Of a stretch of DNA of 25,364 nt, positions 1,512-22,705 are shown piece after piece (within the stretch, counting starts at the first letter, position 1; each line of letters opens with the position of its first letter). A model generated the notes under the pieces. It was not told where the DNA came from. It saw only the letters and a list, made by a program, of their open reading frames with translations, and searched no databases. The DNA comes from Prolixibacteraceae bacterium (GTDB lineage Bacteria; Bacteroidota; Bacteroidia; Bacteroidales; Prolixibacteraceae). Position numbers and translations under genes: made by a program. The DNA lies in contig JAGODU010000051.1 in NCBI GenBank assembly GCA_017998095.1, forward strand, positions 1-25,364. Reading direction: 5' to 3'.

Positions 1512-1551
1512 AGTAAATATCAATTATGTTGTTAGTATGCAGCTGATTACA

Positions 1552-4500
1552 TTATATTAAATTCAAGAATCTCGCAAGTATTTTTCTTACCAAGAACTTA
1601 CAGTCCGATGCCTTATCTCGTGAAATTGTCGAAATATGAGCTGATTTGTTCCTGAATTTATTCAGGAGTTCGTTCAACTCAGCCAAAAACTCTGTATTAT
1701 ACAAATCAGGGGAGAAGTTATCAATTACGTATAGATGGAAGTCACTAATGAGCCTGCTTCTCTCTAACAAGGTTCCATCGTTAAGGTTATTCAGTATGAA
1801 ATACATACTGCCCAGCGATATAGAATGTCTATTATTTATCACTGCCTGGGCAAAAAGCCGAGTAGCTGGGTGATTTTGGTCTTCTTCGTAATCTTTATCA
1901 CAATTGGGATTAATATTCCTTATGTAATTGATAAAAGGTACAAATGCTTTGAAAAGGAGTTCACTTTCCACTGATCTTGAGAGTTGTAGCACATATGGAC
2001 TATAATCCTCAGAGAACTGTTTTACCAGTGTATCATGTATATATTCAGCTGATATCAGGAATGAAAAACTCTGTCTTTCAAGTTTTGGAGCATCCTTGAT
2101 ATATCCCCGTACCCTGGCATCAAATATGTTATTGTCAGTAGGAGTTATTCCGTCGAGGTGATTATATATTTTTTGTTGAATTTCTTCTTCATCGACAAAA
2201 ACCTCTGAATTCCCCTCCAATGCCGACTGAATTGAATGAGTAATATTCTTGATGTTATTTTTTAACAACTCCTTGGCAACGATAGTAATCATCCCTTCAA
2301 GTGTTCCTGCCTTTCTAAGGTCTTCAACTGTGATATCATAGAAAGTTGAAAGATCGTTTCTTCGCAATTCAAGCTCTTCTGGCTGAACATTTTCCTTCTG
2401 AGGCAGATAAGCTTCAGCAGGGAATTCTCTATATTTTTCTAATATGTCATAAATTTCTGAAGAGTTAAAGACAACAGCCCAATGCCATTTTCCAAATCTG
2501 GTGGTTGTATTAACAGCTCGTACCCAGAAGTTCAGAAATTCCCTTTTTACCCTGTTCTCATCATTATCTTGCCCTTTGACTTCCAGAATTAGTTTATCGC
2601 CGTTCTTGAGTTCAATTAAATAATCAGGGATATAGTTTCTTATTAAGCCCTTATAGTGGTACTTAATTATGAATCCAAGGTGATCATTTTTTACAAATGC
2701 CCTTACTGCTTCATGTTTATCAATAATATTCGCATTATTTGCCTCCCAGGTACTGTCAAAAACCGTGAAGTTTATATGACATTTTTTGTGCCATTCATTC
2801 GGTTTGGAGGTATACCATGTTGGCATGTCTGACGTTGAGCGAATTGGCTTCTCATTATCAAATACTGGGGTAAGTACCGCAGCATTCTGATCTTTAATCG
2901 CAACCCAAAAATGCTGAATTATCCTTGAAATGTTCAATGTTAAAAGTATGTTCTTCCTTACATTATCTCTATTGAACAGATCTGTTTTTATTAAAAGCTT
3001 ATTTGAGCTAATGAATTCCTCAGTTAGCTTAAGAAGCTGGGCAAGAAAGTCATATTCATTTCCCTTCCAATTTGGCTTTTCCCTACTGTAGATATTGGTA
3101 GCAACTCTGAAAATCACTGACTGTAAGCGAAATCTTTCTGAGTATTCCTTCAGGTCAATATCAGTTAATGCAGCTGGCACTACATTATTCTGAATTACTC
3201 CAGCAAGTTCGGCTACCGTAATACTATCATTGGGATCAATTACAATAGGTTTAATTTCATTATAATCTATTGACAGACTGGATTTATATACAGTGTCAAC
3301 TCTTAGGATATTAGGGAATTTGATTTCAAAATTTAACTTTTCATTTATGGGTTCAATCTGGTATTTTGGCTTCGGTGGACGTGGAACTGAAACACCACCT
3401 TCATGTGGAATGAAGGAAAATGGAACACCGAAGACATTCACATATTCAGGTTCCAACATCTGGTTTTCATCAAATTCGTAGGAAATCCTCCTTAATCCCC
3501 TTCCTATAACCTGTTCACAAAGCAATTGGCTTGAAAAAGCTCTCAGTCCCATGATTTGAGTTACGTTTTTCGCATCCCATCCCTCGGAGAGCATACTAAC
3601 ACTTATTACATTCTGGATCTGCTCTCCTGGTTGACCAACTTTACCAACAGTATCAACTTTTTCACGTAATTGTTCTGCTAGCAATTTCTTTGATCCAGAG
3701 AGATTTTCATCCTCATTTTCAATCTGGTTTAAGATTTCACTGTCAATCTGAAGTGTCTTATCTATATCACAGAGCTCCTTTACTTCACACTCTGATGAGT
3801 CGAAATAGAATTTAATTCGTTCTGAGGTAGCGGTAGTATTTGCAATTGTAATCATAGCAGGAGGAATTTTGATGCCTCTCCTTATCCATTCCTGTTTTGT
3901 TTTCAACCAATCTGATCCTAAGAGGTTGTAAGCGTTCTTAACCAAGTCGGGTATTGGCGTTTCTTTGACTACCTGCTTCTGATTTAGATCCTCCCTTACT
4001 TCATCATCGTTGTAAATGTGGTATAAACGTGATTTATAATCGGAAGTGTATTTCCCATCATCCCTGAATACTACTCTTGGAGTTTTAACCAGTCCAGATT
4101 CAATTGCATCATTTAACCCAAAATCACTTATGATCCATTCATACAAACCCAACTCAGAAGTTCTTTTACCTGTTGGAGCAAATGGGGTAGCTGAGAAATC
4201 ATGGCACCGAAGTATTTTTACCTGCCTGTGAAGTTTATCAAGTCCTCCTACCCATACAGTATTGTCAATGTCTTCCCTTTTTACCTGCTTTTCTTTACTT
4301 TCAGCAGCAGTTCTCCATGCATGATGGGCTTCATCATTAATAACCAAAATATTATTTGATTTAGCCAATTCTCCTAAGACCATCTTAGCGTAAGTGGAAT
4401 CGCTAACTTCCATGTATCGTCTCTTATCAACACTTCTCAATTGTCTTTTCTGGGCTTTTTCATTAAGTCTTTCCTGTGTATCCCAGGCCAGCATATGCCA

Positions 4501-5157
4501 GTTTATTACAAGTATCTGGCCTTGTCGCAGTTTATCCATCAATGTTGGAGGTACTATATTGAATTCATTATAGTAATTGTTTTCATCTGGAGGATAAAGA
4601 ACTGCCAATCTGCTTTTAACAGTTAGTCCAGGAGAGACCACTAATATATTTTTAGAAAACCTATTATCCTGTTTATATGATACTTTGTTCAATATATTGT
4701 AAGCGATTAACATGGCCATTACAATCGTTTTCCCACTTCCAGTAGCCATTTTACAGCACCATCTTCCAAAGTCACCACCATCTTTGGGAATGGAAATGCC
4801 AGTTTTAAAATGGTCTGGGGCTTCGTTCAAAAAAATAATAGTCTCGATTGCTTCTAACTGACAAAAGAACAAAGGATAAGTTCTCCGGTTACCGTCTTCC
4901 CAATATTCTAATAGGTCACGAGTAATGCCAGTTAATCCCGGTCTGTTATTCTCTTTCCACTCTTTTAATCGTCTTCTAATTATGTTTACCAACGGAAGTT
5001 CAATGAACTCTCCAATATTTTGAGAAGAGGCAATAGTATATCCAGCAGGTCTTCGGCCTTCAGCTTGAAAAAATTCTTGTGTCGCTAGCTCATATTTCCA
5101 ATGGACATGAGGTTCCTTGTACGGAGAACAAAGTATTAACTTATCAATTTGTTTCAT
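1552..5157 (-). CDS. Type III-like restriction endonuclease subunit (SF2 helicase plus PD-(D/E)XK nuclease)
   Basis: 1201 residues, cytoplasmic: an ATP-driven DNA translocase and endonuclease. SF2 motifs run in order: Walker A GSGKT (140-144), DEAH box (275-278), FSATPF motif III (about 322), and SEGWDAKNV then QVIGRGLRR motifs V/VI (about 520-555). The nuclease site is IPDY...ILEVKGQ, with D845, E859 and K861. The start resembles the BPTD_3080-type Res family ('dkLIl.SPY.ePh.HW.y'). From memory those proteins are near 1000 residues, so the last ~200 residues may be an extension; they contain FRNKSAH (R1169 to H1174), another RX4H motif. The ATG at 5155-5157 overlaps the upstream methyltransferase stop (ATGA overlap), indicating translational coupling. 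The frame is intact throughout. Because Type III-like Res needs Mod, it may be inactive here. Confidence 0.92.
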   Translation of the reverse strand: MKQIDKLILCSPYKEPHVHWKYELATQEFFQAEGRRPAGYTIASSQNIGEFIELPLVNIIRRRLKEWKENNRPGLTGITRDLLEYWEDGNRRTYPLFFCQLEAIETIIFLNEAPDHFKTGISIPKDGGDFGRWCCKMATGSGKTIVMAMLIAYNILNKVSYKQDNRFSKNILVVSPGLTVKSRLAVLYPPDENNYYNEFNIVPPTLMDKLRQGQILVINWHMLAWDTQERLNEKAQKRQLRSVDKRRYMEVSDSTYAKMVLGELAKSNNILVINDEAHHAWRTAAESKEKQVKREDIDNTVWVGGLDKLHRQVKILRCHDFSATPFAPTGKRTSELGLYEWIISDFGLNDAIESGLVKTPRVVFRDDGKYTSDYKSRLYHIYNDDEVREDLNQKQVVKETPIPDLVKNAYNLLGSDWLKTKQEWIRRGIKIPPAMITIANTTATSERIKFYFDSSECEVKELCDIDKTLQIDSEILNQIENEDENLSGSKKLLAEQLREKVDTVGKVGQPGEQIQNVISVSMLSEGWDAKNVTQIMGLRAFSSQLLCEQVIGRGLRRISYEFDENQMLEPEYVNVFGVPFSFIPHEGGVSVPRPPKPKYQIEPINEKLNFEIKFPNILRVDTVYKSSLSIDYNEIKPIVIDPNDSITVAELAGVIQNNVVPAALTDIDLKEYSERFRLQSVIFRVATNIYSREKPNWKGNEYDFLAQLLKLTEEFISSNKLLIKTDLFNRDNVRKNILLTLNISRIIQHFWVAIKDQNAAVLTPVFDNEKPIRSTSDMPTWYTSKPNEWHKKCHINFTVFDSTWEANNANIIDKHEAVRAFVKNDHLGFIIKYHYKGLIRNYIPDYLIELKNGDKLILEVKGQDNDENRVKREFLNFWVRAVNTTTRFGKWHWAVVFNSSEIYDILEKYREFPAEAYLPQKENVQPEELELRRNDLSTFYDITVEDLRKAGTLEGMITIVAKELLKNNIKNITHSIQSALEGNSEVFVDEEEIQQKIYNHLDGITPTDNNIFDARVRGYIKDAPKLERQSFSFLISAEYIHDTLVKQFSEDYSPYVLQLSRSVESELLFKAFVPFINYIRNINPNCDKDYEEDQNHPATRLFAQAVINNRHSISLGSMYFILNNLNDGTLLERSRLISDFHLYVIDNFSPDLYNTEFLAELNELLNKFRNKSAHISTISRDKASDCKFLVRKILARFLNLI

Positions 5158-6719
5158 CGTTTGATGATTTTCAGACTTTCAATACCTCTATCGTCGATGA
5201 TTTTAACAGCAATGACTTTACCTGGAGTAAATGGTAAAGAAATTGTTCCATTAAATGCTTCTATTTTGTCTTCATCAATTTCTGATTTCATGTTTTTTGC
5301 AAGTTTTGACCATCCTTCACTACTACCCGAAAGAGGGAGAAACACTTGTCTTGGCAACAAACTTCGCCCATCATAATCAGGATCTAAAAGCCACATAGCA
5401 ATATTCTTTTTACCTCCACTCTCAATAGCACCTGTTCGTGGATTATAATAATCGAAACCTAATACTTCAACCTGAATTTTCCCTCTGTTCTCACCATCTT
5501 GAATTTCATGTAATCGAACTTCAGGCTGTCCAATGAGCCAAAAACTTTGATTAGTATTACTTTTCTTCTTAAGATCATCGGTTTGTAAGTCCATGTTCAT
5601 TTGAGCCTTCAATAGTTTAAATCCCACCAATCTATCAGGTGTTTCATCAATATCCTTAGCGGCTTCATCATCAAATTGGAATGCACAAAACAACAGAATA
5701 TCAGGTTTTAAATATCGGGCTTCATCAATGGCTAATTCCACAGTCCGTTGTTCAAGAGGAGCATGTTCTGGCCCGAAAACAATTAAAACTTGTTCGGGAT
5801 TCTCAATCTTGGTCTCAGCTTGAGCCTGAATATGTTTTGTTCCTTCTATAGCTTTTACATAGGTGAAATTCATAATTGCCCCACCTTTGGCTCGGACTCC
5901 AGTCCTAAGCAATTCGTCACGCCATTGATCTTGTCTTATAGTTTCGCCAACTCTTGAAATAGAGTTATCTACATCCATTTCAGTTTCCAAAATCCCTTCA
6001 AGGTCTCTAACAATAGGTGAAGGAATACTTTCAACTGTAAATGGGCCTGATATTCTCAACTTTTTAGCATCTATTATTGGTTGATCGATAAAATGGATTT
6101 CTTCTGGCTGCAATTTTTCCGCTAAAATCTCTAAGTTTATTCTCTTTGCAGATTTATATTTAAATCCATTCCCTACTCCTTCATTTGGCAGTGCCAACTC
6201 AAAAAAATCAAAATTGGCAGTTACCAACCTTTGCTTTGCTAACGTAATTGCTACCCTTGATGTATCACAAGTAATCCAGCGTCGCCCCCACTGCTCAGCA
6301 ACATAGGCGGTTGTGCCACTCCCACATGTAATATCCATAACTAATTCCCCTGGCAAAGTAGAAAGTAAAATACATCTTTGGATTGGCAATTCATCAGTTT
6401 GAACAGCAAAAATAGGTTCCATTTCAGCTGCAGTATCATCCCAGAGATTATTTAAAATGTAATATGGGAAATCTGTAATGTACTCTTTATATGGTCTCCA
6501 TGAACTATTACCCGTCAAACGGTTAAGATCTATAAGTGTTTTTAATCCTTTTAAGTCAAATTTCCACTCCTGGCCACTCGGAGGTATAATATCTTTACCA
6601 TTTATATTGATTGGAAAAGTATTTTGAGGATTCTTAGTCTTTTTTGAACCAACTTGTGTCCTAAAAACCTTCGAAAGATCAAGATTGGAATTTCTTATGT
6701 CTTCAGTTAGACAAACCGC
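5154..6719 (-). pseudogene. Type III-like site-specific DNA methyltransferase, N-terminus missing
   Basis: The frame is open from 6719 to a TGA at 5154-5156 (521 residues), but a stop sits at 6720-6722 and there is no ATG between 6518 and 6719. The first available start is a TTG at 6518, inside conserved sequence. Visible parts are the segment before motif I (NTFPININGKDIIPPSGQEW) and the SAM-binding motif I/post-I block (ELVMDITCGSGTTAYVAEQW, then GRRWITCDTSR) near 6285-6340, followed by the usual long C-terminal region. In beta-class methyltransferases the catalytic DPPY-type motif lies upstream of motif I. That half is absent, so the protein cannot methylate. The 5' break lies about 15 nt from the IS21 left end. 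A split gene with its N-terminal half elsewhere cannot be excluded. Confidence 0.8.
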
Positions 6720-6737: not shown

Positions 6738-6832
6738 GCCAGAGTAAACTGACCACCTCCTGCCGATTAATATTTACAACCTCTGCCGGAGCAAACTGAC
6801 CACCTCCTGCCGGAGCAAACTGACCACACTTC
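6738..6832 (+). repeat. IS21 left-end tandem repeats
   Basis: Four head-to-tail units of about 24 bp: 6738-6761, a degenerate one at 6762-6784 (GCCGATTAATATTTACAACC), 6785-6808, and 6809-6832. The clean units share the core AAACTGACCAC. Such multiple end repeats are the known binding sites of IS21-type transposases. The degenerate second copy keeps the spacing while losing the core. Confidence 0.8.
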
Positions 6833-6900
6833 AAATCGTTATTTACACTTCTGATTAGTGACATGATTGAGTAATGTTGGGCTTTCCAATTTTATTAATC

Positions 6901-8463
6901 ATGTGTAATAATTTAATTAGAATGAGTAAAGTACGAAGCATCATCAAGCTGTACGCCCAGGGCGTCAGCAAGCTCTCAATCGGAGAGCGCACCCAGTTAC
7001 CGAGGAATACGGTAAGACGGTACATACATTTGTTTTTGGCTTCAGGGTTGAGTCTGGAAGACCTTGACAAACTGGATGACAAGTCCCTGGAACAGTTGTT
7101 TCTGGATATGAGTAGCCGGGAACATATAGAGGACGATCCCCGTTATCTGGCTCTGAAAGAGCTGTTTCCTGAGATCGATAAAAAGTTAAAACAAAGAGGA
7201 ATAACCAAAGAGATGCTCTGGAAGGAGTACTTTGAGAAACACCCGGACGGTTACCGGGTATCTCAGTTCAAGGCACATTTTTTACGTTGGAAAAGGGCCA
7301 GTAATCCAACCATGCATATAGATCACAAGGCTGGAGAGAAGATGTATGTGGATTATGCGGGTGAAAGGTTGTATTATCTGGATGTTTTTACAGGAGAGCT
7401 TGTTGAAGCTGAAATTTTTGTGGCGATCCTGGGTGCCAGCCAGCTTACCTATGTCGAAGCCAGTAGCAGCCAGCAGAAAGAAGATTTCATAAGTTCTTGT
7501 GAAAACGCTCTACACTTCTTTGGTGGAGCTCCAAAGGCGATTGTCACTGATAACCTGAAGTCGGCGGTGATCAAAAGCAGTAAGTACGAACCCACACTGA
7601 ACCAGGCCTTCGTTGATTTTGTCAGCCATTATACGATGGCAGCTTTGCCGGCCGGACCTTACAAACCAACCCACAAGGCGTTGGTGGAAGGAGCCGTTAA
7701 AATCATCTATCGGACTATTTACCCGGAAGTGAAAAACCAGGTTTATTCTGGTCTGGAAAGCCTGAACCGTGCCATACAGAAAGCGCTGGGAAACCATAAC
7801 AACCGCTTGCTCAATGGAAGACCATACAGCCGCAGGCAGTTGTTCGAGGATATAGAACGGGATCAGTTACAGGGATTACCACAAACCCGCTTTGAGATCA
7901 AACGTCGGAAAGTAGTGACGGTTATGAAGAATAATTACGTGTGTCTGAGCGAGGATAAGCATTACTACAGTGTTCCTTATCGTTACCTGGGAAAACGAGT
8001 GACAATTTTGTACAGCCAGTCAGAGGTTGAAGTGTTCCATCACTATGAGCGGATAGCTTTGCACCTGCGTGATAGAAAGCATTACGGGCATACCACTGTT
8101 GAGGATCATCTGGCCTCCAAGCACCGGTTCATGAGCGATTGGAACCCCGATAAGTTCATCAATAGGGCTTCTGAAGTAGGTCCGGATACCAAAGAATACA
8201 TCATCGGTCTACTGGGCAGCCGACAGCATCCGGAGCAGGCCTATCGATCATGCCAGGGGGTATTGAGCTTCAGTGCCCGGGTGGGAAAGGAAAGGCTGGA
8301 AAAGGCCTGCCGCAGGGCCATGCAGTATGGAGATTACAGCTATCACACCATCCGGGTGATCCTCGAACGTGGACTGGATAAAGATGAGTTCGAAGCCGGT
8401 GAAGGACAAACGCCGGTACCGCCGATCCATCCCAATATCCGGGGGCCCAGGTATTACGCTTAA
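6901..8463 (+). CDS. istA: IS21-family transposase IstA
   Basis: A DDE integrase-superfamily transposase that binds the terminal repeats and carries out strand transfer, working with IstB. The N-terminus has an HTH (AQGVSKLSIGERTQLPRNTV) as in IS21/IS408 proteins. The rve-type catalytic core shows D151 (VDYAGE), D217 (IVTDNLKSA) and E263 (KALVEGAVK). The C-terminal region resembles the Mu-transposase C-terminal beta domain (NYVCLSEDKHYYSVPYRYLG). The ATG at 6901 is chosen because relatives usually carry a short leader before the 'M.KVR.II' block. ATGs at 6874 and 6922 are alternatives. Length of ~520 residues is normal and the frame is intact. Confidence 0.93.
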   Translation: MCNNLIRMSKVRSIIKLYAQGVSKLSIGERTQLPRNTVRRYIHLFLASGLSLEDLDKLDDKSLEQLFLDMSSREHIEDDPRYLALKELFPEIDKKLKQRGITKEMLWKEYFEKHPDGYRVSQFKAHFLRWKRASNPTMHIDHKAGEKMYVDYAGERLYYLDVFTGELVEAEIFVAILGASQLTYVEASSSQQKEDFISSCENALHFFGGAPKAIVTDNLKSAVIKSSKYEPTLNQAFVDFVSHYTMAALPAGPYKPTHKALVEGAVKIIYRTIYPEVKNQVYSGLESLNRAIQKALGNHNNRLLNGRPYSRRQLFEDIERDQLQGLPQTRFEIKRRKVVTVMKNNYVCLSEDKHYYSVPYRYLGKRVTILYSQSEVEVFHHYERIALHLRDRKHYGHTTVEDHLASKHRFMSDWNPDKFINRASEVGPDTKEYIIGLLGSRQHPEQAYRSCQGVLSFSARVGKERLEKACRRAMQYGDYSYHTIRVILERGLDKDEFEAGEGQTPVPPIHPNIRGPRYYA

Positions 8464-8474
8464 CCAAATGAATT

Positions 8475-8506
8475 AACCCACGGCGGGTAGTGGCCCGCAG
8501 TGGGTT
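8475..8506 (+). promoter_or_regulatory. strong hairpin between istA and istB
   Basis: AACCCACGGCGGG (8475-8487) pairs with CCCGCAGTGGGTT (8494-8506) around the 6-nt loop TAGTGG, with one internal mismatch. It lies 11 nt after the istA stop and about 30 nt before the istB ATG. There is no T-run after the stem, so a simple intrinsic terminator is unlikely. A role in setting the IstA:IstB ratio, by mRNA stability or attenuation, is an inference. Confidence 0.6.
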
Positions 8507-8538
8507 CGTTAAATAATCAAACAATAAATCAATACATT

Positions 8539-9294
8539 ATGAATGAAGAAACTTTGCACAGAATGAAACAGATGAAGTTCCTGGGTATGGCCAATGCCTT
8601 CCGGGCAACTATGGAAGCTGACCCAATCGCATCCCTTACCAATGATCAAATGGTATCGTTACTTATTGATGCCGAGTGGGATGATCGGAACAACCGACGC
8701 ATTGAAAGAAGGCTAAGGTTAGCCAGGTTCCGCTACATGGCGAACATGGAACAAATCCTCTTTAACCTGGACCGCAACCTGGATAAAAACCTCGTAATGC
8801 GCCTGGCGGAATGTGGCTTTATCGACAAAGCGGAAAACCTCCTAATCACAGGTAGCACGGGGGTTGGTAAAAGCTACATTGCGTCTGCTCTCGGGAACCA
8901 GGCCTGCACGATGGGTTACCGGGTGATATACGGCAATACCGGCAAATTGATGTCACGACTGAAAATGGGGAAATCGGACGGATCCTATCTTAAAGAAATC
9001 TCCAGGATCGAGAAGCATGATCTGTTGATCCTCGATGACTTTGGGCTGCAACCCTTTGACAATATTACACGTTCCACATTGATGGAGATCATCGAGGATC
9101 GACATGGCAAACGCTCAACCATCATCACATCCCAGTACCCCGTATCCGATTGGCATACCATAATTGGTGAGCAAACGGTAGCCGATGCCATCCTCGATCG
9201 CATCGTTAACAATACGCATCGCATTGATCTAACTGGGCCTTCATTGAGGGAACTGCTATCCGGGAAAAAGAAACAGACAGTTGAATTGGATTAA
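8539..9294 (+). CDS. istB: IS21-family AAA+ transposition helper IstB
   Basis: A DnaC-like AAA+ ATPase that helps IstA select the target and assemble the transpososome. The Walker A motif is GSTGVGKS (105-112, K111) and the Walker B is LLILDDFGLQP (D166-D167). The N-terminal helical region starts MNEETLHRMKQMKFLGMANA, typical of IstB. The ATG at 8539 is chosen; a GTG at 8500 would place the start inside the hairpin and add an atypical leader. The 251-residue length is normal. It follows istA after 75 nt, probably on one transcript. Confidence 0.95.
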   Translation: MNEETLHRMKQMKFLGMANAFRATMEADPIASLTNDQMVSLLIDAEWDDRNNRRIERRLRLARFRYMANMEQILFNLDRNLDKNLVMRLAECGFIDKAENLLITGSTGVGKSYIASALGNQACTMGYRVIYGNTGKLMSRLKMGKSDGSYLKEISRIEKHDLLILDDFGLQPFDNITRSTLMEIIEDRHGKRSTIITSQYPVSDWHTIIGEQTVADAILDRIVNNTHRIDLTGPSLRELLSGKKKQTVELD

Positions 9295-9356
9295 AAAATG
9301 TATCTTTGAAATAAGACTATCAGACAGCAAAATGATCGATTTGAAGAAAAGGAAAA

Positions 9357-9426
9357 GTGACTGGTTAGTTACTTCGGCGTAGGGTGGTCAGTTTAAATCG
9401 GTAGAGACTGATCAGTTTGGTCGGCA
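9357..9426 (-). repeat. IS21 right-end tandem repeats
   Basis: Read on the minus strand, three units of about 23 bp follow one another inward from the tip: GCCGACCAAACTGATCAGTC, then ACCGATTTAAACTGACCACC, then CGCCGAAGTAACTAACCAGT. They are inverted relative to the left-end array and share its (A)AACTGA(C/T)CA core. Confidence 0.75.
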
Positions 9427-9457: not shown

Positions 9458-12400
9458 ATGCAATTAAAATCATCATATTTCTTAGAAGGTATTAAATCAC
9501 AGCTTGTTAATCATTTAAAGGGAGAAATTCTTCATTCAAATGAATTTGATTATAATAGCAATTGGGAACGCACACTTGAATCACTTGTTACTGATGAAGC
9601 AAGAAAAAAGAAACTTGAGAATGAACTACTCTCAAAACAAAATCAATTAGAAGGACTAATAAATTGGTTATCTTGGTTTCATGTCAACCGTGAAATTGAA
9701 CTACCTGAAACGCCAAATCCAATTCTTGCAGTTCTAAATAACCTTATTAGCCGAGGCGAGTTTACAAAGCCCTCATTATTTGTTGAAGAAGTTTTTTCGA
9801 AAGCATTTCAAAAAACTACTATACAATTAGATGAAAGTCTGGGCAGTATCAATACAAATTTGCTTGACAAATCACAAGAGTTTTTCAACTCTGTCTGGAC
9901 AACATTGCACATTATTGACACAACCGCACAATGTGATAGCGTTAGCAAAATAAAATTGGGGGACCCGAATTCAACATTTGAACGCTGGATTATCTCTGAT
10001 TTTATCTCAGAACAAACCTCTTTTCTTAGGCAAATACTTCAACAACAACGGACATTGAATTCAATTTGTCTCCCTGAACAGCAAAGAGGGTTTAAAGGAA
10101 ACAGAGTTGATTTCTCTGTGGAGTGCCCATATTATTTTTCAGATGAAGTTGATGAATTTTTCTGGAAAAAGAGTTTTAAAATTAAAAGACGACATGGTTT
10201 AGTTATTGAAATTGACGGATCACCTTACCATGAACTTGGACCTCAAAAAATTCACGATGAAAATCGAGACATTGCGTTAAATTTATCTAAATGGCAAGTC
10301 AAACGTGTGTCCTCTGCAAAAAAAAATGAAGATTCTGAGAAGGCAATCTCAGCTTTACTTAAAACGCCTTTCGTTCAGACAACAAAGATTAATTTTGATA
10401 TATCTAACAGTGAGAGAAGGCTTTTTGCTCAATTAGTCTTATCTCCAATAGCAATTGCTAGAATTCAAAAGACAATTGTAAGGTATCTTATTTCACTAGG
10501 TGATATTATATCTAAGAAAAGCATTTTTAAAATAGCAATTATTGAACGAGATGTTCCTTGTGGATTTATCTCAGTTGATGACTTGAATGAGCTGATAAAA
10601 AATCTATGCCAATTGAAAGGAGTAAATAATCTTCCAAAAATTGAAGCAACGGTTTATAATGACTCTGAATATTCTGGCTCACCACTTCAATTAAGGGAAG
10701 TACTGAAATCATCAACTTTGAATCTTTCAGAAAATGATTTTGATTTAATCATTGACAACTCTATTTTAAGAAGGGAAGGAGTTTTTTTGGACGATTCTTT
10801 ATTCCAGTCAGACAAGACAATTATAATTCGATCAACACATTATACAGAGAATGAAAATGAAAGTATTCTTTGTTCTGATACTATTAAATACAAGAAAATT
10901 GTCAATCCCTTAAATGATGGCACATATGAGGAGTATGCAAAAGAAAAAGAAATATTGACCTATTTTCTTCAAAATATATTTCGCAAGATTGAATTTAGAG
11001 TTGGGCAATTACCAATTCTGAACAGGGCATTACAACTCAAATCTGTAATTGGCTTGCTTCCAACAGGTGGGGGGAAATCATTAACCTACCAATTAGCAGC
11101 ACTGCTTCAACCAGGAATAACACTTGTTGTTGACCCAATAAGATCATTGATGATCGACCAATTTCAAAACCTCTCGAAAACAGGCATCGAAAACTGCAAT
11201 TTTATCAATTCAAATTTGGATACAAATGAAAGAGGCATAAATATTAGTAAGCTCATAAGGGGTGAGATTCAATTCTGTTTTATTTCACCTGAAAGATTAG
11301 TTACCGAAGAATTCAGGCAAACACTTAAAGAATGCGGAGAAAAGGGTAAATACTTTTCTTATTGTGTAATTGATGAGGTCCATTGTGTAAGTGAATGGGG
11401 GCACGATTTCAGAACTCCTTACCTATCGCTGGGAAAAAATGCAAGAAAATATTGTCCATCTTTTAAAAGAAGATTTTTTGAAGATGGTTATAAACTTCCC
11501 CTTTACGGATTGACTGCGACAGCCTCGTTTGATGTATTGGCTGATGTTGAAAGAGAATTGGAAATTTTATCAAGTGAAGTTGATGATACCATTATAAGTT
11601 TTGAAAACACATTACGGGAAGAGATTCAGTATTCAATAATCCAGACAGATATAGACCTAAATACCAATCTGCTTCCATCTCCACAAAGACTGAATGTTTG
11701 GTTAAATCCCAATCTGAAAGGGGCTGGTTTTACAGGTTATATACCACCTCAGATAGATGCTGCTAGTAATGTCGTTGGAGATTTACCATTGAAAACAGAA
11801 ATTGGAAAAAGAAAACAAAATGAAGTGACTGACATTCTGCAAAATAAGTTTCTTCAAAATTGGACATACTTTTCAAACGAAGCCATTCAGAATGAACTTC
11901 TAAATATCTCATTTACAGATTATTTAGATGAGAAACAAAAAGCATCTTTTAAAAATGATGAAACAAATTATATCGCAAAAAAAATATCCAATATAATTCA
12001 TGAAAATGAAATCACTGCTGATAATATTTGGAGTGAAAACAACAATGGTTTTATAATTTTTGCTCCACACAGAACAAGTTACTTCGGAGTAACAGATAAA
12101 TTTAAAAAAGATGCTAAGGGCAATCCCTTTCCTTTAGCAAAACATCATGGAATTTTTGATAACATTCAAGGACAGTTTTCTTCGGGTATTTTTATGGGTT
12201 CAGGGGATGATACAGATGAAAAAACAAATGAAGAAATACAAACTGAGTCATTTAAGCACCAGGAAAAGTTTATCAACAGCGATATTGCTATAATGGTGGC
12301 AACAAAAGCCTTTGGAATGGGAATTGATAAACCCAATATCCGTTCAACTATTCACATTAATATGCCAAGTTCACTTGAAAGTTTTGTTCAGGAATCTGGA

Positions 12401-14458
12401 AGGGCTGGAAGGGATGGAAAGCTAGCAATCAGTTTTCTTTTATTTAATCAGCAGCGCTTTAAATACTTTGCTCCCCAAACTTATAGAAACCTTTATTCAG
12501 GTAACACAAAACATGGCATTGAAAGAAAAAAGGTTCAACTGGCAGATTATACAACCTGTATACAACTAAGACAGATTGCTAATACAAATACTTTAATAGA
12601 CAAGCATCGTTACCTGAGATCAGATTTTGATAGTATCCTGACAAACATAAATAATCCCCTTCTTGATACAAGCAGCCCTCCCAATGAAATATCCCACAGA
12701 GAAAAACTTAAAATTGCAGCTGAAGAACAATGGGTGGATTTTGATATACTTGAATATTTTCATTACAATTCATTTAAAGGTATTAATAAAGAACTTGTAA
12801 TATTAAACGAGTTACTAACCGAAATCTCATTCCCGCATAGAGAAAAGAAAGATGAAATCGCCGAAGAGTTTTCCGAAGAAATTAATCGAAAATCATTGTT
12901 AAAATGGGGAAATGGCAAACATTCAAATAATTTATGGTTAAATTGTGAAGAAACAGGAAGAGGATATGGATTTATTAATACCAATGATTTTTCCGTTCAT
13001 TTTTATATTGATGGAGGCTTTGAAAAAGGTGAAGCACTTCAAATATTAAATCAATTAAAGGAATTCATCTTACAGCACCCAGATTTCGCTAAACTTACAA
13101 CAAACCACCAAAGATGTGATTTACTGAAGTCAATGGTTTTAAAAGGAAGTTGTGAAGGACTAATTCATGCTTTAGAAGCAGGTGAAACAGAGCTTGACTT
13201 TGGATTAATTAATCGCTTTTATCAAACTAAAGATATCAGAGGAAATTTTATTCCTGAAACCCCATGGTTAAATCAAATAACCGCAATACTAAGAAAAAAA
13301 TTCGCTGAAATAGACCAATTATCAGATTCATTAATAGTTGACAAGTTTCTCAATAATATATTTTTCCCAAATCAAACCTCCGATCCTATATCATCTGTTG
13401 AAGATTTATGGAATAACATTGAGAAATTCTATCAAACATTACCTGCTCCATTTGGACCAAATTATGATTTGACTCTACTGCATACACCTGACAGAGAGTC
13501 CGCTTTGGAAAAAGGATTTTATTGTGACAGAAATAGCTCTGATACTTTAAAAGCCATCTATAGATTAATGTCCATTGGCATAGTAAACGATTATGAAATT
13601 GACTATAGAAGAAGGACTGTATTACTGAAGTTTTCATCAGACGGTATTCCACAAATTTATAAATCAAATCTGAAAGAATTTTTCAAGAGATATTTCTCAG
13701 AAGTTCAATCTCAGAATAGGATTAACCAGTTAAATATTGAAAATGAAAATGACATAAATGAAACAATCACAAAATGTTTGAAAGCTCTGATTGAATTTGT
13801 TTATGAAGAAACTGAGGAAAAAAGATTCCAAGGTATAAAGGAAATGGTTGAAGCAGTTCAACAAGGGTTACCCCGACCGAATGAATCTCCAATTGAAGGT
13901 AATAAAAGATTTAAGGAGGAGATTTACTATTACTTCAATGCCAAATATGCAAGAAAATATGTTTTACCAACTGGTGAAGCAGCTTCATTAGTTGCAGATA
14001 CTGAAATAGGAAAAATTTCGAATTTTAACATTTGTGAAAAATATTTTCGTGTGCTAAGGGAGGACAGAGGGGCTTATCTTTCGAACCTTAAACATCTTCG
14101 TGGCTCAACACAGAAAATTTTAAGAGCTGTAAATCAGAATAATGCTTGCTTGAAAATCCTAAAAGCATTTTCCCTTTACCAATTAAGCCAGACACAAACA
14201 TATTTCATTGATGAAGTGATAAATCCAGTTGATGGGTTATTTGTTAACGGTTTTGTGTCTTTATTTCAAGAATCAAATTGGAAATTATCTGAATTGCAAA
14301 TTGCACTTGACAAATTAGAAATTGAGTGTAACAGATATTATCCCGAACATAGATTTAAGAACGAATGGTTAGCATGTAGAGAATCAATCTATCTTAAACA
14401 CCACAATTGGTGGCTTTCAAATTTTATTAACAGAATTACTCCAGTAGAAAATGCCTGA
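9458..14458 (+). CDS. PD-(D/E)XK (Vsr/DUF559-like) nuclease fused to RecQ-type helicase
   Basis: 1666 residues, cytoplasmic. Residues ~1-200 are helical and unrecognised. Residues ~210-290 are Vsr/DUF559-like: VDF (D218), VIEIDG (E251, D253), YHE (H258), then ENRDIALNLSKWQVKRV. A RecQ-family SF2 core follows: PTGGGKS Walker A (K540), DEVH box (639-642) within CVSEWGHDFR, LTATAS (~686), then ATKAFGMGIDKPN and SFVQESGRAGRDGK (Q978, R982, R985). Between the two RecA lobes is an unusually long ~200-residue stretch, including the block around FAPHRTSYFGVT. The last ~650 residues have no domain I can name and no clear RQC zinc cysteine set. RecQ proteins are normally 500-700 residues, so this is a large fusion. 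The ATG is 27 nt after the IS. It overlaps the next gene by 8 nt, implying a shared complex. A defence role is inferred from architecture and neighbourhood; repair or recombination is possible. Confidence 0.88.
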   Translation: MQLKSSYFLEGIKSQLVNHLKGEILHSNEFDYNSNWERTLESLVTDEARKKKLENELLSKQNQLEGLINWLSWFHVNREIELPETPNPILAVLNNLISRGEFTKPSLFVEEVFSKAFQKTTIQLDESLGSINTNLLDKSQEFFNSVWTTLHIIDTTAQCDSVSKIKLGDPNSTFERWIISDFISEQTSFLRQILQQQRTLNSICLPEQQRGFKGNRVDFSVECPYYFSDEVDEFFWKKSFKIKRRHGLVIEIDGSPYHELGPQKIHDENRDIALNLSKWQVKRVSSAKKNEDSEKAISALLKTPFVQTTKINFDISNSERRLFAQLVLSPIAIARIQKTIVRYLISLGDIISKKSIFKIAIIERDVPCGFISVDDLNELIKNLCQLKGVNNLPKIEATVYNDSEYSGSPLQLREVLKSSTLNLSENDFDLIIDNSILRREGVFLDDSLFQSDKTIIIRSTHYTENENESILCSDTIKYKKIVNPLNDGTYEEYAKEKEILTYFLQNIFRKIEFRVGQLPILNRALQLKSVIGLLPTGGGKSLTYQLAALLQPGITLVVDPIRSLMIDQFQNLSKTGIENCNFINSNLDTNERGINISKLIRGEIQFCFISPERLVTEEFRQTLKECGEKGKYFSYCVIDEVHCVSEWGHDFRTPYLSLGKNARKYCPSFKRRFFEDGYKLPLYGLTATASFDVLADVERELEILSSEVDDTIISFENTLREEIQYSIIQTDIDLNTNLLPSPQRLNVWLNPNLKGAGFTGYIPPQIDAASNVVGDLPLKTEIGKRKQNEVTDILQNKFLQNWTYFSNEAIQNELLNISFTDYLDEKQKASFKNDETNYIAKKISNIIHENEITADNIWSENNNGFIIFAPHRTSYFGVTDKFKKDAKGNPFPLAKHHGIFDNIQGQFSSGIFMGSGDDTDEKTNEEIQTESFKHQEKFINSDIAIMVATKAFGMGIDKPNIRSTIHINMPSSLESFVQESGRAGRDGKLAISFLLFNQQRFKYFAPQTYRNLYSGNTKHGIERKKVQLADYTTCIQLRQIANTNTLIDKHRYLRSDFDSILTNINNPLLDTSSPPNEISHREKLKIAAEEQWVDFDILEYFHYNSFKGINKELVILNELLTEISFPHREKKDEIAEEFSEEINRKSLLKWGNGKHSNNLWLNCEETGRGYGFINTNDFSVHFYIDGGFEKGEALQILNQLKEFILQHPDFAKLTTNHQRCDLLKSMVLKGSCEGLIHALEAGETELDFGLINRFYQTKDIRGNFIPETPWLNQITAILRKKFAEIDQLSDSLIVDKFLNNIFFPNQTSDPISSVEDLWNNIEKFYQTLPAPFGPNYDLTLLHTPDRESALEKGFYCDRNSSDTLKAIYRLMSIGIVNDYEIDYRRRTVLLKFSSDGIPQIYKSNLKEFFKRYFSEVQSQNRINQLNIENENDINETITKCLKALIEFVYEETEEKRFQGIKEMVEAVQQGLPRPNESPIEGNKRFKEEIYYYFNAKYARKYVLPTGEAASLVADTEIGKISNFNICEKYFRVLREDRGAYLSNLKHLRGSTQKILRAVNQNNACLKILKAFSLYQLSQTQTYFIDEVINPVDGLFVNGFVSLFQESNWKLSELQIALDKLEIECNRYYPEHRFKNEWLACRESIYLKHHNWWLSNFINRITPVENA

Positions 14459-15065
14459 ACTTGAAGACATCCAAAGACAAATCCATGGTGAAATTTCCTC
14501 ATTACAGGAAAACCTTAAATCATTGAACACTATTCGGCTTGAATTTGAACAAGCCAAAAACCTTGTAAAAGAACATATCACCAAGGTTGATGAATACATT
14601 CGAAGTATTCAGACTCATTCCACGAACTTGCAGAATTTACTATCAAAATATGCCGATGAAATAAAAGAACATACTATTCAAGAAATAAACCGCGCAATTT
14701 CGTCACTTGAAGCAGTTTCAAATGAAATAATAAGAACAGTTAATTCTTTAAAGGAAGAAATTAAAAATCTCTTACAAACAAACAAGGAGCTTATTCAAGA
14801 AGCAAAAGAACTTTTTAAGCAGATTGATGAAATTAATTTACCTAAACGGTTTGATGAACTTGAAAAGAGTTTATATGATATTAACGAAAAAATTACTCGA
14901 CTTGAAAATAAAGTTGAGGCGTATTTTAAATCAATTAAAGCAGAGATTGATGATATTCACAGAAGTAACTCTAGGTTAAAAAAACAAAATAAACTATTAC
15001 TATATTTCTTAATCGGAATAAGTGTTATTGCTATAATGACACTTATTATTTTAATAATGAAATAA
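14451..15065 (+). CDS. coiled-coil protein with C-terminal membrane anchor
   Basis: 204 residues. Residues ~1-180 are almost continuous heptad-rich helix (for example EINRAISSLEAVSNEIIRTV and EKSLYDINEKITRLENKVEA). Residues ~181-203 form one hydrophobic span (LLLYFLIGISVIAIMTLIIL) ending in K. There is no signal peptide, so the expected topology is a cytoplasmic coiled coil held to the inner membrane by its tail. The ATG lies inside the last codons of the nuclease-helicase gene (8-nt overlap, different frame), so translation is coupled and the products probably act together. The family is unrecognised. Such a partner could tether the nuclease-helicase to the membrane, oligomerise as a sensor, or act as a membrane effector; the sequence does not choose between these. 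Confidence 0.85.
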   Translation: MPELEDIQRQIHGEISSLQENLKSLNTIRLEFEQAKNLVKEHITKVDEYIRSIQTHSTNLQNLLSKYADEIKEHTIQEINRAISSLEAVSNEIIRTVNSLKEEIKNLLQTNKELIQEAKELFKQIDEINLPKRFDELEKSLYDINEKITRLENKVEAYFKSIKAEIDDIHRSNSRLKKQNKLLLYFLIGISVIAIMTLIILIMK

Positions 15066-15259: not shown

Positions 15260-16429
15260 TTAACTTAACATTAAGAGACTGTCTACCATACTCTCGTCCA
15301 GATAAGGATAAAAGACTTTTCCCCATAATGATTTATTGCTTGTCATATGTTCCCAAATCCATTTTTCGTGAAACTCTTCTATTATCTCAAGAGACCATGG
15401 GACATATGTTGCACAGCTTAAGTCAGGCCAATACCAAAAGTCTTCGAATTTCTTTATTAAATCCAATGACCATGGTAAATTGGTGTTAGTCGTTAATCCT
15501 GAAGTGATTGATAAAAAACCTTTTGGAGTAAGTTCTTCATGACCCCACTCCCATCTATCTTTGAATCTTTCAATTAAATCTATTGACCATGGAAGGCTTG
15601 CACAAAGACTTAGATGATCCCAGTCCCAATAATCCTTATATTTTTCAAGTAGATCTAAAGACCAAGGCACTCGGTCTTCATAGCTCATTTTATGCCAATC
15701 TGGATTTTTCAATACATGGTTTAATTCTTTAGCAGAATATTTACCCTTTATAACTTTGGGTTCAGATTTATAATCCCAGTTAATATCTAACCATAATTCA
15801 CAATTTTTTTCCTTATAGGTTTCAAAATTAAAGCTGGATTGATACTTGGTAATTAAATCATTGGTCCAGTTAACTGCTCTATTTCCACATAATATATCCC
15901 AGTTCCAGTATGAAGAAAGGCTTTCAATAAGCTCTTCAGTAAAATTTAAAAATTCATTTCCACTTATGTAATCCCAATAAAGTCTGTCAGAGAATTCTTT
16001 AAGTATTTCGGGGTACTTATTTAACAATTCAGTATTTCCTGATATCATCCCCCAATCGATTCTCTCCTGATATTTTTTAAGGATATTGAAGGACCACTTT
16101 ACTGATTTATTTTCAGCCAAGCAACAATCCCAAATGTTTTCTTCTTTTGTCCAATGCCATCTATTCGCATACTTGATTATTAAAGTATCAGACCATGGGA
16201 TGCGTTCATTTCCACTCAAAGTTTCCCAATCCCAATAATTCTCATATTTAGCTATCAGCTTAACCGACCATTTAAGATATTCACTACTACTGAGTAACTT
16301 CCAATCAAGGTGATCCTTATATTTTTCAATAATATTTTCTGAGAGTGGGTATTCAAGACAGATATGATTAAAGAAGAAACTTAAATTCTCTTGCAAAAAA
16401 GTAACTATTCTTTCTTTTTGTGAGTTCAT
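15260..16429 (-). CDS. Trp-rich ~25-residue tandem-repeat protein
   Basis: 389 residues from an ATG at 16427-16429, with no signal peptide or membrane span. Nearly the whole protein is a repeat with the consensus S.N..(L/V)PWS.(D/E)LI.K(F/Y).D.W.W..L. Good copies include SGNERIPWSDTLIIKYANRW, EDRVPWSLDLLEKYKDYWDW and TYVPWSLEIIEEFHEKWIWE. About ten copies can be counted. The array is interrupted near the middle by a less regular stretch (around YKEKNCELWLDINWDYKSEP). Each unit looks like a short helix (LDLIEKF..) between Trp-rich turns, so a solenoid-like binding scaffold is likely. I do not know a named function. It points away from the helicase pair and is probably separately expressed. Confidence 0.85.
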   Translation of the reverse strand: MNSQKERIVTFLQENLSFFFNHICLEYPLSENIIEKYKDHLDWKLLSSSEYLKWSVKLIAKYENYWDWETLSGNERIPWSDTLIIKYANRWHWTKEENIWDCCLAENKSVKWSFNILKKYQERIDWGMISGNTELLNKYPEILKEFSDRLYWDYISGNEFLNFTEELIESLSSYWNWDILCGNRAVNWTNDLITKYQSSFNFETYKEKNCELWLDINWDYKSEPKVIKGKYSAKELNHVLKNPDWHKMSYEDRVPWSLDLLEKYKDYWDWDHLSLCASLPWSIDLIERFKDRWEWGHEELTPKGFLSITSGLTTNTNLPWSLDLIKKFEDFWYWPDLSCATYVPWSLEIIEEFHEKWIWEHMTSNKSLWGKVFYPYLDESMVDSLLMLS

Positions 16430-18338: not shown

Positions 18339-19964
18339 TTAATTTTTTACACAACGAATAGCATCTCCTGTTGTTCTTAAATGTACAGTTCCCGTAACAG
18401 AGTTGCTGTCATATCGAATGTATCGTACATTTGCATTTTCATTATAAGGGGTACTGGTCCACCAGACTGCCACTAGACCAAGACTTTCAAAGGGCCCAAT
18501 ATTGCTTTGGCGAATTCCACTTGGTGGAGCATTAAAGCCGCTTCCATTATTACTTGTCTGATTATTTCCAACATTTCCGGCTATTGGATCTATTGACCAC
18601 ATGGTCGTTGAAGCTATTGATTTAGCAATATCGCTACCACTACCTCCATAACCAAATCCATTATTAGTCAAATAATTAATCAAGACCAACCATTCGGCAT
18701 CTGTCGGGACATGCCAACCATTTGGACACACATTCCTGCCACCGTTTCTTGTGACATCTATAGTATTCCAATTATATAATGCTCCATAAATTTCTCTATT
18801 TAATCCATCATTATTATACCAACAATATCCAGGTGTGGTTAATGCAGACCATGCTGATGCATCTGTTACATTTGGAATTGATGTGCCGTCATTAAATCTG
18901 GTAGTTTTAAGATTTTCTGCCATCCAGATTTGGTTACCAATTGTAACAATCTGGTAAGTATTACCATCAATATCATTCACATGATTTATTGGCTCTGTAG
19001 TAAAAACCATGTCTCCACCATAAACTGTACCTATTGAATTCACTGCTTTAATTCTGTAGTGGTAAGTTGTACTTGAAGTCAAACCCGAAAGAACAGCACT
19101 AACATTCGTACTTGCGTTTCCAGTTACTGTTCCAGGGACAGATACTACTGAATTGCCATATGAAATGGTTGTACCATATTCAAAAGTTACAATTGTGGAA
19201 AGATAGTTTGCATTAACTGATCCGTAGAGTGTTGCTCCTGTTGATGATAAACAACAAGCAGCCTGAGTTACAGCAACAGGAGCACTGCCAAATGTTGTGA
19301 ATGTCATATCATCACCATAGGTTGTTCCAATACTATTTTCAGTCTTTATTCTATAATGATACGTGGTTCCAGGAGATAATCCTGAGATATTGACAGTTAC
19401 ATTTATAATGTTATTACCTGTAAAAGGGTTTTGGATTGGTGTAGCAGTCTGTCCATAACTAGTTGTTGCACCATATTCGAAGGTCACGGTTGTTGAAAGG
19501 TAATTCGGATTTACAGTACCATTCAAATTAGCTTCAGTACTAGAAATATTTGTTGCAGGTTGAGTTAAACCCGCTGGAGCTAATCCCAAGGTGGTAAATG
19601 AGATATCGGCACCATAAGCAGTACCTACTGAGTTTGTTGCATATGCTCTTATATGATAAGTTGTCCCTCCTGAAAGGTCTGTAAGATTACTTACAAATTG
19701 GCCAATGCTTCCACCGTCGATGGTCTTTGAATCGCCTAATGAAGGATTTGTAATGGTACTCCAGCATACTCCACTTGCGGAAATTGTAGCGCCTCCATCA
19801 TCCGTGATAGTCCCACCACTTGTAGCAGTCGATACAGTAATATTTGTTGCCGGTGTGGTTGAAACTATTGGTAATTGCGGTGGATCCTCTTTTTTACAGC
19901 TACTAAAAAGTTGTAAAATTAGCAAAATTAAGACCGTAGGATAATTGCAGATTCTTTTATTCAT
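18339..19964 (-). CDS. FISUMP-domain lipoprotein with two Fn3-like repeats
   Basis: 541 residues. A lipoprotein signal (LILLILQLFSSC, lipid-attached C23) is followed by KKEDPP, so export and membrane anchoring, possibly surface display, are expected. Residues ~24-127 form a divergent module with GGTITDDGGATISASGVCWS. Two 99-residue Fn3-like repeats follow (128-325; TFEYG...SYG...G...ISGL.PGTTYHYRIK). The C-terminus from ~330 is a Fibrobacter succinogenes major paralogous domain: DIDGNTYQIVTIGNQIWMAE, NLKTTRFNDG, YCWYNND, YGALYNW, CPNGWHVPTDAEW, and final IRCVKN. FISUMP resembles C-type-lectin-like formylglycine-family folds, but its ligand is not known. It is the next gene downstream of a longer paralogue on the same strand, 130 nt away. 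Confidence 0.92.
   Translation of the reverse strand: MNKRICNYPTVLILLILQLFSSCKKEDPPQLPIVSTTPATNITVSTATSGGTITDDGGATISASGVCWSTITNPSLGDSKTIDGGSIGQFVSNLTDLSGGTTYHIRAYATNSVGTAYGADISFTTLGLAPAGLTQPATNISSTEANLNGTVNPNYLSTTVTFEYGATTSYGQTATPIQNPFTGNNIINVTVNISGLSPGTTYHYRIKTENSIGTTYGDDMTFTTFGSAPVAVTQAACCLSSTGATLYGSVNANYLSTIVTFEYGTTISYGNSVVSVPGTVTGNASTNVSAVLSGLTSSTTYHYRIKAVNSIGTVYGGDMVFTTEPINHVNDIDGNTYQIVTIGNQIWMAENLKTTRFNDGTSIPNVTDASAWSALTTPGYCWYNNDGLNREIYGALYNWNTIDVTRNGGRNVCPNGWHVPTDAEWLVLINYLTNNGFGYGGSGSDIAKSIASTTMWSIDPIAGNVGNNQTSNNGSGFNAPPSGIRQSNIGPFESLGLVAVWWTSTPYNENANVRYIRYDSNSVTGTVHLRTTGDAIRCVKN
18990..19583 (-). repeat. two tandem 297-bp Fn3-like coding repeats
   Basis: Two 99-codon units encode LAPAGLTQPATNISST... 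and SAPVAVTQAACCLSST..., each with TTVTFEYG/TIVTFEYG, TYHYRIK and T.YG.DM.FTT at the same register. They match the five units of the neighbouring gene. The second copy carries an unusual CC pair. Confidence 0.85.
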
Positions 19965-20094
19965 TACAAATTTTTCTTATATTCAGATCTATCAGTCTTA
20001 TTAAACAGTAGAATTAATTTTAGCTTAATGGGTAAAGAATATCTTAGGACCATTATCACTATATTATTTTAAGATCAGCCACTGACCTATATTT

Positions 20095-22539: not shown

Positions 22540-22705
22540 GGATTCATTGGTATTGAATGAATGGATAAATGAAGTAATGCTGATCATACTCGAATATATT
22601 GTTTTATAACAATAAAATAAAGTTGAGTTTCCCATCGTAAGGTTTTTGGAAATTTCCGTTATGAGAGACGAAAAAGTATTAAAGGATTTCAGGAAAAGGG
22701 GTTAA

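Follow-up and report, generated by a model that had tools for sequence, protein, structure and literature searches.

Giant RecQ-family helicases with a nuclease-like front end raise the question of what they do together with a small coiled-coil protein anchored in the membrane by its C-terminus. Such a pair lies in a stretch of 25,364 nucleotides (nt) from a Prolixibacteraceae bacterium (assembly GCA_017998095.1, contig JAGODU010000051.1, positions 1 to 25,364, forward strand), here named the window. The original prediction for this locus described a protein of 1666 residues, here named the giant, coupled by an 8-nt overlap to a partner of 204 residues, and suggested an anti-phage role. Both open reading frames (ORFs) and their overlap are indeed present. 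We propose, with a probability of about one half, that the pair is a mobile accessory two-gene module for defense against invading DNA, in which a RecQ–coil chassis carries exchangeable front-end effectors.

The giant and its partner gene recur as a unit

A search of 5.8 billion proteins with the giant scored 7994 candidates, of which 5195 matched at E ≤ 0.001; among the best 120 of these matches, 12 were 56–100% identical to the query and the others 35–43%, with the best local alignment covering 19–97% of the query. The window giant and 27 sequences from this search make up an alignment of 28 sequences (A1). An earlier contig scan with the window giant as a single-sequence query returned no match; an alignment query succeeded on one-genome-per-species contigs, from which the best 80 of 583 confirmed loci were taken, and a scan of IMG/VR with the giant alignment gave 9 loci. 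We kept 75 of the 89 loci, having a best ORF of at least 900 amino acids (aa) and a match to the giant at E < 1e-40, and excluded 14 that were short, broken or plain RecQ. Residue conservation was read from 76 aligned giants (the 75 relatives and the window).

A downstream gene was counted as a partner when it was co-directional, lay −100 to +60 nt after the giant, encoded 120–520 aa and had a single hydrophobic span at the extreme C-terminus. A gene of this type directly follows the giant in 69 of the 74 related loci that have at least 500 nt of downstream sequence, compared with 3 of the 336 remaining pairs of neighboring co-directional genes in these loci, and chance pairing is therefore excluded. 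The misses are a giant of 971 aa whose ORF stops early with nothing downstream (L040), a 480-aa protein in which an additional domain comes after the coil and span (L042), a following gene of 354 aa at a distance of 252 nt (L055), a 277-aa gene with a terminal hydrophobic segment that fails the partner rule (L056) and a coil without a span (L079). Linked by BLAST, the downstream genes of 33, 17 and 12 loci form three groups, and those of the other loci are unlinked at the threshold used. Overlaps of 4, 8 or 11 nt between giant and partner recur among the relatives. A coil also follows the four more distant giants that were examined (Raoultella, Haliscomenobacter, Salinibacter and Rhodothermus plasmids). 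As judged from these sequence comparisons, the architecture of a RecQ giant and a tail-anchored coil as one unit is well supported; the open-licence PMC papers searched held no account of a nuclease–RecQ giant with a membrane coil.

A RecQ-family helicase carries a predicted nuclease

The original prediction assigned a full RecQ motif set to the giant, and the profiles agree: DEAD (6.9e-17) and Helicase_C (6.3e-11) are above the Pfam cut-off, and the NCBIfam recQ_fam subfamily model scores 228.7 bits against a cut-off of 219.8. The helicase motifs and RecA-like lobes place the giant in the RecQ family, presumably with the 3'-5' polarity of this family. It fails the canonical RecQ equivalog of NCBIfam (258.9 bits against 640.2), and the compact zinc-binding RQC layout of canonical RecQ is absent, with a long insertion preceding the helical hairpin. 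K540, D639 and E640 are kept in 76 of 76 giants, and A1 shows no variation in the main helicase motifs. All significant matches of the window giant in Pfam, NCBIfam and PADLOC are confined to this helicase part.

The predicted inter-lobe insertion proved to be real. The C-terminal region, which the original prediction had left without a name, can now be named in part. More specifically, a segment at about residues 1355–1400 is probably winged-helix-like, as suggested by its pattern of a helix and a beta-hairpin, and structure comparison points to a probable RecQ-Ct-like helical hairpin after an insertion of roughly 420 residues. Within the insertion, R1369 is found in 75 of the 76 giants, G1374 in 65 and K1365 in 63.

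In the N-terminal half, a plausible nuclease site had been placed at D218, E251 and D253. The three residues stand at these positions, together with E175, and all four members of this E…D…E-x-D pattern are present in 66 of the 72 giants that have an intact N-terminus; in A1 they are invariant, as are H258, D267 and D271. One further giant has N at the fourth position (L065), and in five (L070, L075, L077, L078 and L080) the domain is missing, with 0–29 residues instead of about 146. The 4 of 76 giants without an N-terminus in the ORF either start at a contig end (L037, L047 and L076) or lie behind an IS21-like insertion (L005). The flanking domains are also conserved, with N95, G100 and T103 of the N-terminal domain and E363, R364, D365 and P367 of the connecting domain invariant in A1.

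The nuclease of the window giant is below threshold in Pfam (MTES_1575, E 0.006; DUF559, E 0.096). DUF559 is above the Pfam cut-off in the Rhodothermus (L151) and Raoultella (L123) relatives, and a nuclease-region profile matched the Raoultella protein with an hhalign probability of 99.3. An AlphaFold model of residues 1–520 has a mean predicted local distance difference test (pLDDT) score of 90.8. Comparison of the N-terminal model by Foldseek and VIA-align gave weak matches to PD-(D/E)XK nuclease folds, nothing decisive and no sign of a new fold either, and the sequences of the PDB gave weak rows for the N-terminal half, such as the endonuclease-like 3hrl (E 0.0045).

The partner is a tail-anchored coiled coil

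The partner was correctly described as a helical coiled-coil protein with a single C-terminal membrane span. In 69 related partners, the median distance from the end of the span to the C-terminus is 2 residues, and there are 2.8 K/R per 12 residues before the span compared with 0.8 after it; by the positive-inside rule, this excess predicts that the rod is cytoplasmic. The pattern (IVLM)(DNGST)(FLI)P-x-(RK)(LFM), picked post hoc after the sequences had been viewed, was matched by 30 of the 73 downstream genes, compared with 2 of the 1127 remaining ORFs in these loci. Identification of the partner as ZorA, LmuB, JetC or an SMC-like protein was rejected, the profile matches being at the level of composition.

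RecQ and coil are retained while the front end changes

The nuclease–RecQ giant followed by the coil, as in the window, is the form found in most loci. In a second form, 22 of the 75 related giants have an N-terminal extension of about 200–250 aa or more, and methyltransferase motif I is present in 22 of 22 extended giants and in 0 of the 53 others. Methyltransf_31 is above the Pfam cut-off in the extension of L066, methyltransferase matches are below threshold in L058 and L075, and L080 has no Pfam match there. In those loci that extend 1.2 kb or more upstream, DUF1848 or AlkB lies within eight genes of 20 of 21 extended giants compared with 0 of 42 unextended ones; the exception is L081, and L033 has DUF1848 downstream. 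At this distance the 75 loci hold AlkB-like genes in 4 cases and DUF1848 in 18 (17 of them upstream, one of these 17 being a fragment of 99 aa where its contig begins), identified by Pfam for all four AlkB genes and for DUF1848 in L058, L066 and L080, and by BLAST grouping for the remaining DUF1848 genes. In the tree, the extended giants fall in one clade of 24 tips, which also includes L029, lacking both the extension and DUF1848, and L047, truncated by a contig end, so that the association reflects largely one origin and one joint loss and not 20 independent events.

The third form consists of the five nuclease-less giants, which are extended, keep the helicase motifs and the tail-anchored partner, and do not form one clade. 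In one of these loci (L077:1113-2740), tandem AlkB-like (Pfam 2OG-FeII_Oxy_2) and DUF1848-group genes lie directly upstream of the methyltransferase–RecQ giant with its coil. In two other loci the DUF1848 gene is separated from the giant by the gene of a large protein (L073:4220-9103, 1628 aa; L074:4223-9103, 1627 aa); the 1628-aa protein has NERD and helicase domains and matches the Mokosh MkoA and PDC-M16A profiles.

A fourth form occurs on enterobacterial plasmids and chromosomes, where DprA, a giant reading HAD–phosphoribosyltransferase (PRTase)–DUF559–RecQ and a coil of 162 aa that has its span at the C-terminus are joined by successive 4-nt overlaps. In PADLOC, ShosA is matched by the upstream DprA (1.9e-65), and ShosT by a part of the fused front end (2.3e-7); the PRTase name rests on this ShosT match and a weak Pfam PRTase_2 match (E 0.049). 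Of 7965 candidates for the enterobacterial giant, 1269 are related to it at E ≤ 0.001, and most of the best 120 have HAD and DUF559. A fifth form comprises the giant and coil on the Rhodothermus, Salinibacter and Haliscomenobacter plasmids.

In summary, as far as these sequences tell, the invariant core is RecQ with the membrane coil, and the nuclease is not the invariant part. This combination of a constant RecQ–coil pair and a changing front end suggests that the former would be a chassis for recognition and localization, and that the front-end enzymes would be exchangeable effectors.

The unit is accessory and lies among defense genes

The giant is accessory and patchy, not core. A profile of its N-terminal region matched 11 of 395 genomes in the phylum of Xanthocytophaga (L019) and 4 of 72 in the genus of Algoriphagus sp. 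AK58 (L030), with one match per matching genome; in the phylum that contains Ellagibacter (L080), it matched 2 of 296. The central genome is included in each case. A profile of the nuclease region matched 1 of 398 genomes in the phylum of L016 (Pseudomonadota), the sole match being the central genome, and the full P0123 profile matched 0 of 398 genomes of Pseudomonadota at E ≤ 1e-100, which by itself says nothing. The E. coli version of the unit is found in 7 of 5426 genomes, in two of them interrupted by an insertion sequence (IS). A stable core-genome repair gene lacking the partner, which the original prediction had named as the outcome contrary to its proposal, is thus not what these genomes hold.

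On two IMG/VR contigs the giant is matched over most of its length. The enterobacterial-branch query gave 20 IMG/VR loci, of which one is the contig of L082 and the other 19 match in the helicase part only. Records of other phyla that stem from metagenome-assembled genomes (Clostridium, Lachnospiraceae and Beckwithbacteria) may be mis-binned.

The neighborhood was compared by PADLOC at E ≤ 1e-15, using proteins encoded within three genes of the pair in 46 loci (113 of 190 eligible proteins scanned) and control proteins from other regions of 12 giant-holding genomes. The 113 neighbors match 247 families compared with 9 for 111 controls, a ratio of matches and not of genes, since PADLOC families are redundant. 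Type I restriction, with 3 members, and the DUF1848 profile, with 8, are among these matches. The related unit of E. coli ET846 (L150) is flanked by type I restriction on one side and by the MzaABC anti-phage genes on the other. The island beside this DprA–RecQ–coil unit (L150:15416-23162) holds a PD-(D/E)XK nuclease, a restriction endonuclease and the MzaABC genes. The original prediction had proposed to ask, across genomes, if the two genes travel together and if they lie close to defense genes, and they do both; accessory distribution and nearby defense genes together place the unit in the setting of a defense system.

Neighborhood of the pair in the window

The features of the window are collected in Table 1. 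The IS21-type element has imperfect terminal inverted repeats of 42 nt (6789-6830/9381-9422, 71%), and its right end lies about 36 nt before the ATG of the giant. The pair has therefore lost its native upstream region, or this region has been displaced. In Flagellimonas aequoris, an IS21-like element with ORFs of 522 and 245 aa, IstA/IstB by eye, directly precedes the giant without an N-terminus (L005:131-2499). On the other side of the window IS, the Pfam match of the methyltransferase ORF covers only positions 168–220 of a domain of 221, and the N-terminal part is apparently missing beside the IS21. A tyrosine integrase is also encoded near the pair. Fib_succ_major and Fn3-like proteins, present further downstream, are typical of Bacteroidota surface proteins.

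Table 1. Features of the window, with residue numbers (res) of the giant or partner
Feature	Positions	Strand	Basis
1666-aa nuclease–RecQ giant, ATG start	9458..14458	+	ORF; Pfam; NCBIfam; 75 related giants
N-terminal helical domain, res 1-165, family motif NN-L/I-I-S/T-R-G-x-(P/F)-T	9458..9952	+	A1; AlphaFold model
DUF559/Vsr-like PD-(D/E)XK domain (predicted), res about 166-310	9953..10387	+	Conservation; profiles in relatives
Candidate nuclease residues E175, D218, E251, D253	9980-9982, 10109-10111, 10208-10210, 10214-10216	+	
Connecting domain, res 311-495, conserved IERD-x-PC	10388..10942	+	A1; folds well in model
RecA-like lobe 1, res about 500-727; Walker A K540, DEVH 639-642	10955..11638	+	Pfam; NCBIfam; conservation
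Inter-lobe insertion, long helices, res about 728-862	11639..12043	+	Gap-rich block in A1; model helices, partly low pLDDT
RecA-like lobe 2, res about 863-1010; motif VI Q978, R982, R985	12044..12487	+	Pfam; conservation
Second insertion, res about 1011-1432, with winged-helix-like segment	12488..13753	+	Conservation; model
Probable RecQ-Ct-like helical hairpin without zinc cysteines, res about 1433-1497	13754..13948	+	
204-aa tail-anchored coiled-coil partner, ATG start	14451..15065	+	ORF; counterpart gene in 69/74 related loci
Giant/partner reading-frame overlap, 8 nt	14451..14458	+	Sequence
Partner motif INLPKRF	14832..14852	+	Pattern search
C-terminal membrane span of partner, res about 183-203	14997..15059	+	Sequence
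CBS-domain protein	804-1523	-	Weak match to DS11 anti-phage family, E 1e-5, 24.8 bits against cut-off 260
BPTD_3080-family restriction enzyme and methyltransferase ORF	1552-6518	-	NCBIfam, 1012 bits (enzyme)
IS21-type element (IstA-like 6874-8463, IstB 8500-9294)	6789-9422		
389-aa protein between pair and integrase	15260-16429	-	No Pfam, NCBIfam or PADLOC match
541-aa and 846-aa proteins with Fib_succ_major and Fn3-like domains; 874-aa ORF with histidine-kinase domains	18339-25330	-	

Proposed function and alternatives

We propose a role in defense because several observations point to it: the pairing, the conserved motifs, the tail anchor, the patchy distribution, the occurrence on plasmids and IMG/VR contigs, the defense neighbors, the ShosTA-like relative and the swap of effectors. 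The coil would oligomerize and hold the giant as a tether at the inner membrane, the place of arrival of phage or plasmid DNA. Loading of the helicase could occur on DNA ends, on single-stranded tails, or on damaged or recombining foreign DNA, and unwinding, together with the large inserted domains, would license the front-end enzyme. In the window copy, the nuclease would then cut DNA. The immediate surroundings in the window lend this proposal little weight: the restriction neighbor looks damaged and an IS abuts the start of the giant, so that the defense setting described by the original prediction holds across the related loci and is weak evidence in the window itself.

A wider version of this proposal is possible but less likely. 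RecQ and coil might be a general chassis for cutting (DUF559), for phosphoribosyl transfer controlled by DprA, or for a write–erase methyl cycle that pairs the fused methyltransferase with AlkB or DUF1848. In this cycle DUF1848, which we take to be radical-SAM-like, would be an eraser of DNA marks able to replace AlkB, and self would be told from invader by a mark whose addition or removal is possible for the resident cell only. No paper on DUF1848 was found among the open-licence PMC papers searched.

Abortive infection would explain the retention of the membrane coil with RecQ in the five nuclease-less versions. The helicase would sense phage DNA or replication damage and release or cluster the coil, which would depolarize or seal the membrane and stop the cell, the front end being a sensor or a second effector. 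In passages of PMC4670107 and PMC9122126, the related RqlHI and ShosTA act as toxin–antitoxin pairs; the toxic part of RqlHI, however, is described there (PMC4670107) as the PRTase and not a membrane protein, and the window giant has no PRTase match. A single span, a tail of about 2 residues and a long cytoplasmic rod also resemble a tether more than a pore, and we consider this explanation unlikely.

The RecQ fold, the DprA of the enterobacterial form and the AlkB-like (4) and DUF1848 (18) genes in the 75 loci would fit an accessory DNA repair function, in which DNA that is alkylated, cross-linked or stalled would be resolved or cut at the membrane by the giant, with AlkB, DUF1848 and DprA as co-workers. 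Most of these loci, however, have neither AlkB nor DUF1848, and PADLOC names its DUF1848 profile RTasDUF1848 and describes it as DRT, which we read as reverse-transcriptase-associated; with the patchy distribution, the defense-rich neighbors and plasmid carriage also opposed to it, repair is unlikely. A plain RecQ repair gene as the complete answer was rejected on the patchy distribution and the partner. Finally, the pair could serve the maintenance or competition of mobile elements, destroying rival plasmids and phages or addicting the host, and would then lie near restriction genes since islands collect such cargo. Plasmids, the two IMG/VR contigs, and the integrase and IS21 beside the pair agree with this; yet copies also occur on chromosomes beside anti-phage genes, and in the 75 loci the two-gene form has no recurrent antitoxin-like neighbor apart from the coil, which makes this explanation very unlikely.

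If the defense module exists as proposed, it would be a widespread family, ranging from Bacteroidota to plasmids of enterobacteria, whose helicase–membrane core is constant and whose effectors can be exchanged, and which is not named as such in the Pfam, NCBIfam or PADLOC versions searched. It would connect the toxic RecQ–PRTase/DprA pairs, DUF1848 and the AlkB genes inside such operons, and the existence of the E. coli version makes laboratory tests straightforward.

Comparison with known systems

The original prediction found no fit to a named system, and indeed no named-system profile in PADLOC or NCBIfam covers both genes. The best PADLOC label of the giant is DpdF (2.2e-74), obtained through the RecQ part (best stretch residues 500–731). 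Membership of the window giant in Dpd was rejected at 147.8 bits against the 550-bit NCBIfam cut-off for DpdF; no other Dpd gene was found in the six window proteins scanned by PADLOC, and the DpdJ match of the giant (0.0056) covers helicase motifs only. The PADLOC model PDLC02868, labelled DpdF and 1078 positions long, spans residues 469–1471 of the enterobacterial giant (374.7 bits), suggesting that relatives may already be filed as DpdF.

Zorya combines a membrane-anchored ZorAB with a coiled rod and helicase–nuclease effectors, and its resemblance to the pair is one of working principle only. Unlike ZorA, the window partner has one C-terminal span, and its ZorA match is at the noise level of coiled coils (3.7e-4 at best); PADLOC gave no ZorB, ZorC or ZorD match for the giant or the partner (best 25 of 27 families for the partner). 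In Hachiman, as described in PMC12278908, the helicase of HamAB constrains the nuclease and senses DNA integrity, and by analogy a similar helicase-over-nuclease logic is plausible for the window pair. The pair differs in its RecQ-type helicase, its single polypeptide and its membrane coil, and neither HamA nor HamB is among the 25 PADLOC families of the giant at E ≤ 0.01. CoCoNuTs share coiled coil and nuclease with the pair, but are McrBC-based according to the abstract of PMC11090510.

RqlHI/PsyrTA, like the pair, is a two-gene operon of a RecQ-family helicase and a regulator, and the PADLOC PsyrT profile matches the helicase part of the window giant (1.5e-50). Passages of PMC4670107 describe RqlH as a RecQ-like protein of about 690 aa whose attached C-terminal PRTase is toxic unless checked by RqlI. 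Unlike this system, the window pair has a nuclease and a membrane coil, with no PRTase among the Pfam matches of the giant up to E 0.1 and no DNA_processg_A in the Pfam-scanned window proteins; in place of DprA, the partner is a coiled coil. ShosTA, a DprA–PRTase pair that protected E. coli against T7 and lambda (passages of PMC9122126), is not known to have a RecQ, a nuclease or a membrane coil. No ShosA or ShosT match was found in the six PADLOC-scanned window proteins (best 25 matches for two of them); the likeness lies in the enterobacterial relative L123, which resembles the ShosTA pair in part: the DprA encoded upstream of it is ShosA-like, and a stretch of its front end is like ShosT. 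In conclusion, we read the window pair, from its sequence, as related to yet distinct from RqlHI/PsyrTA/ShosTA, and as a putative variant of helicase–nuclease defense.

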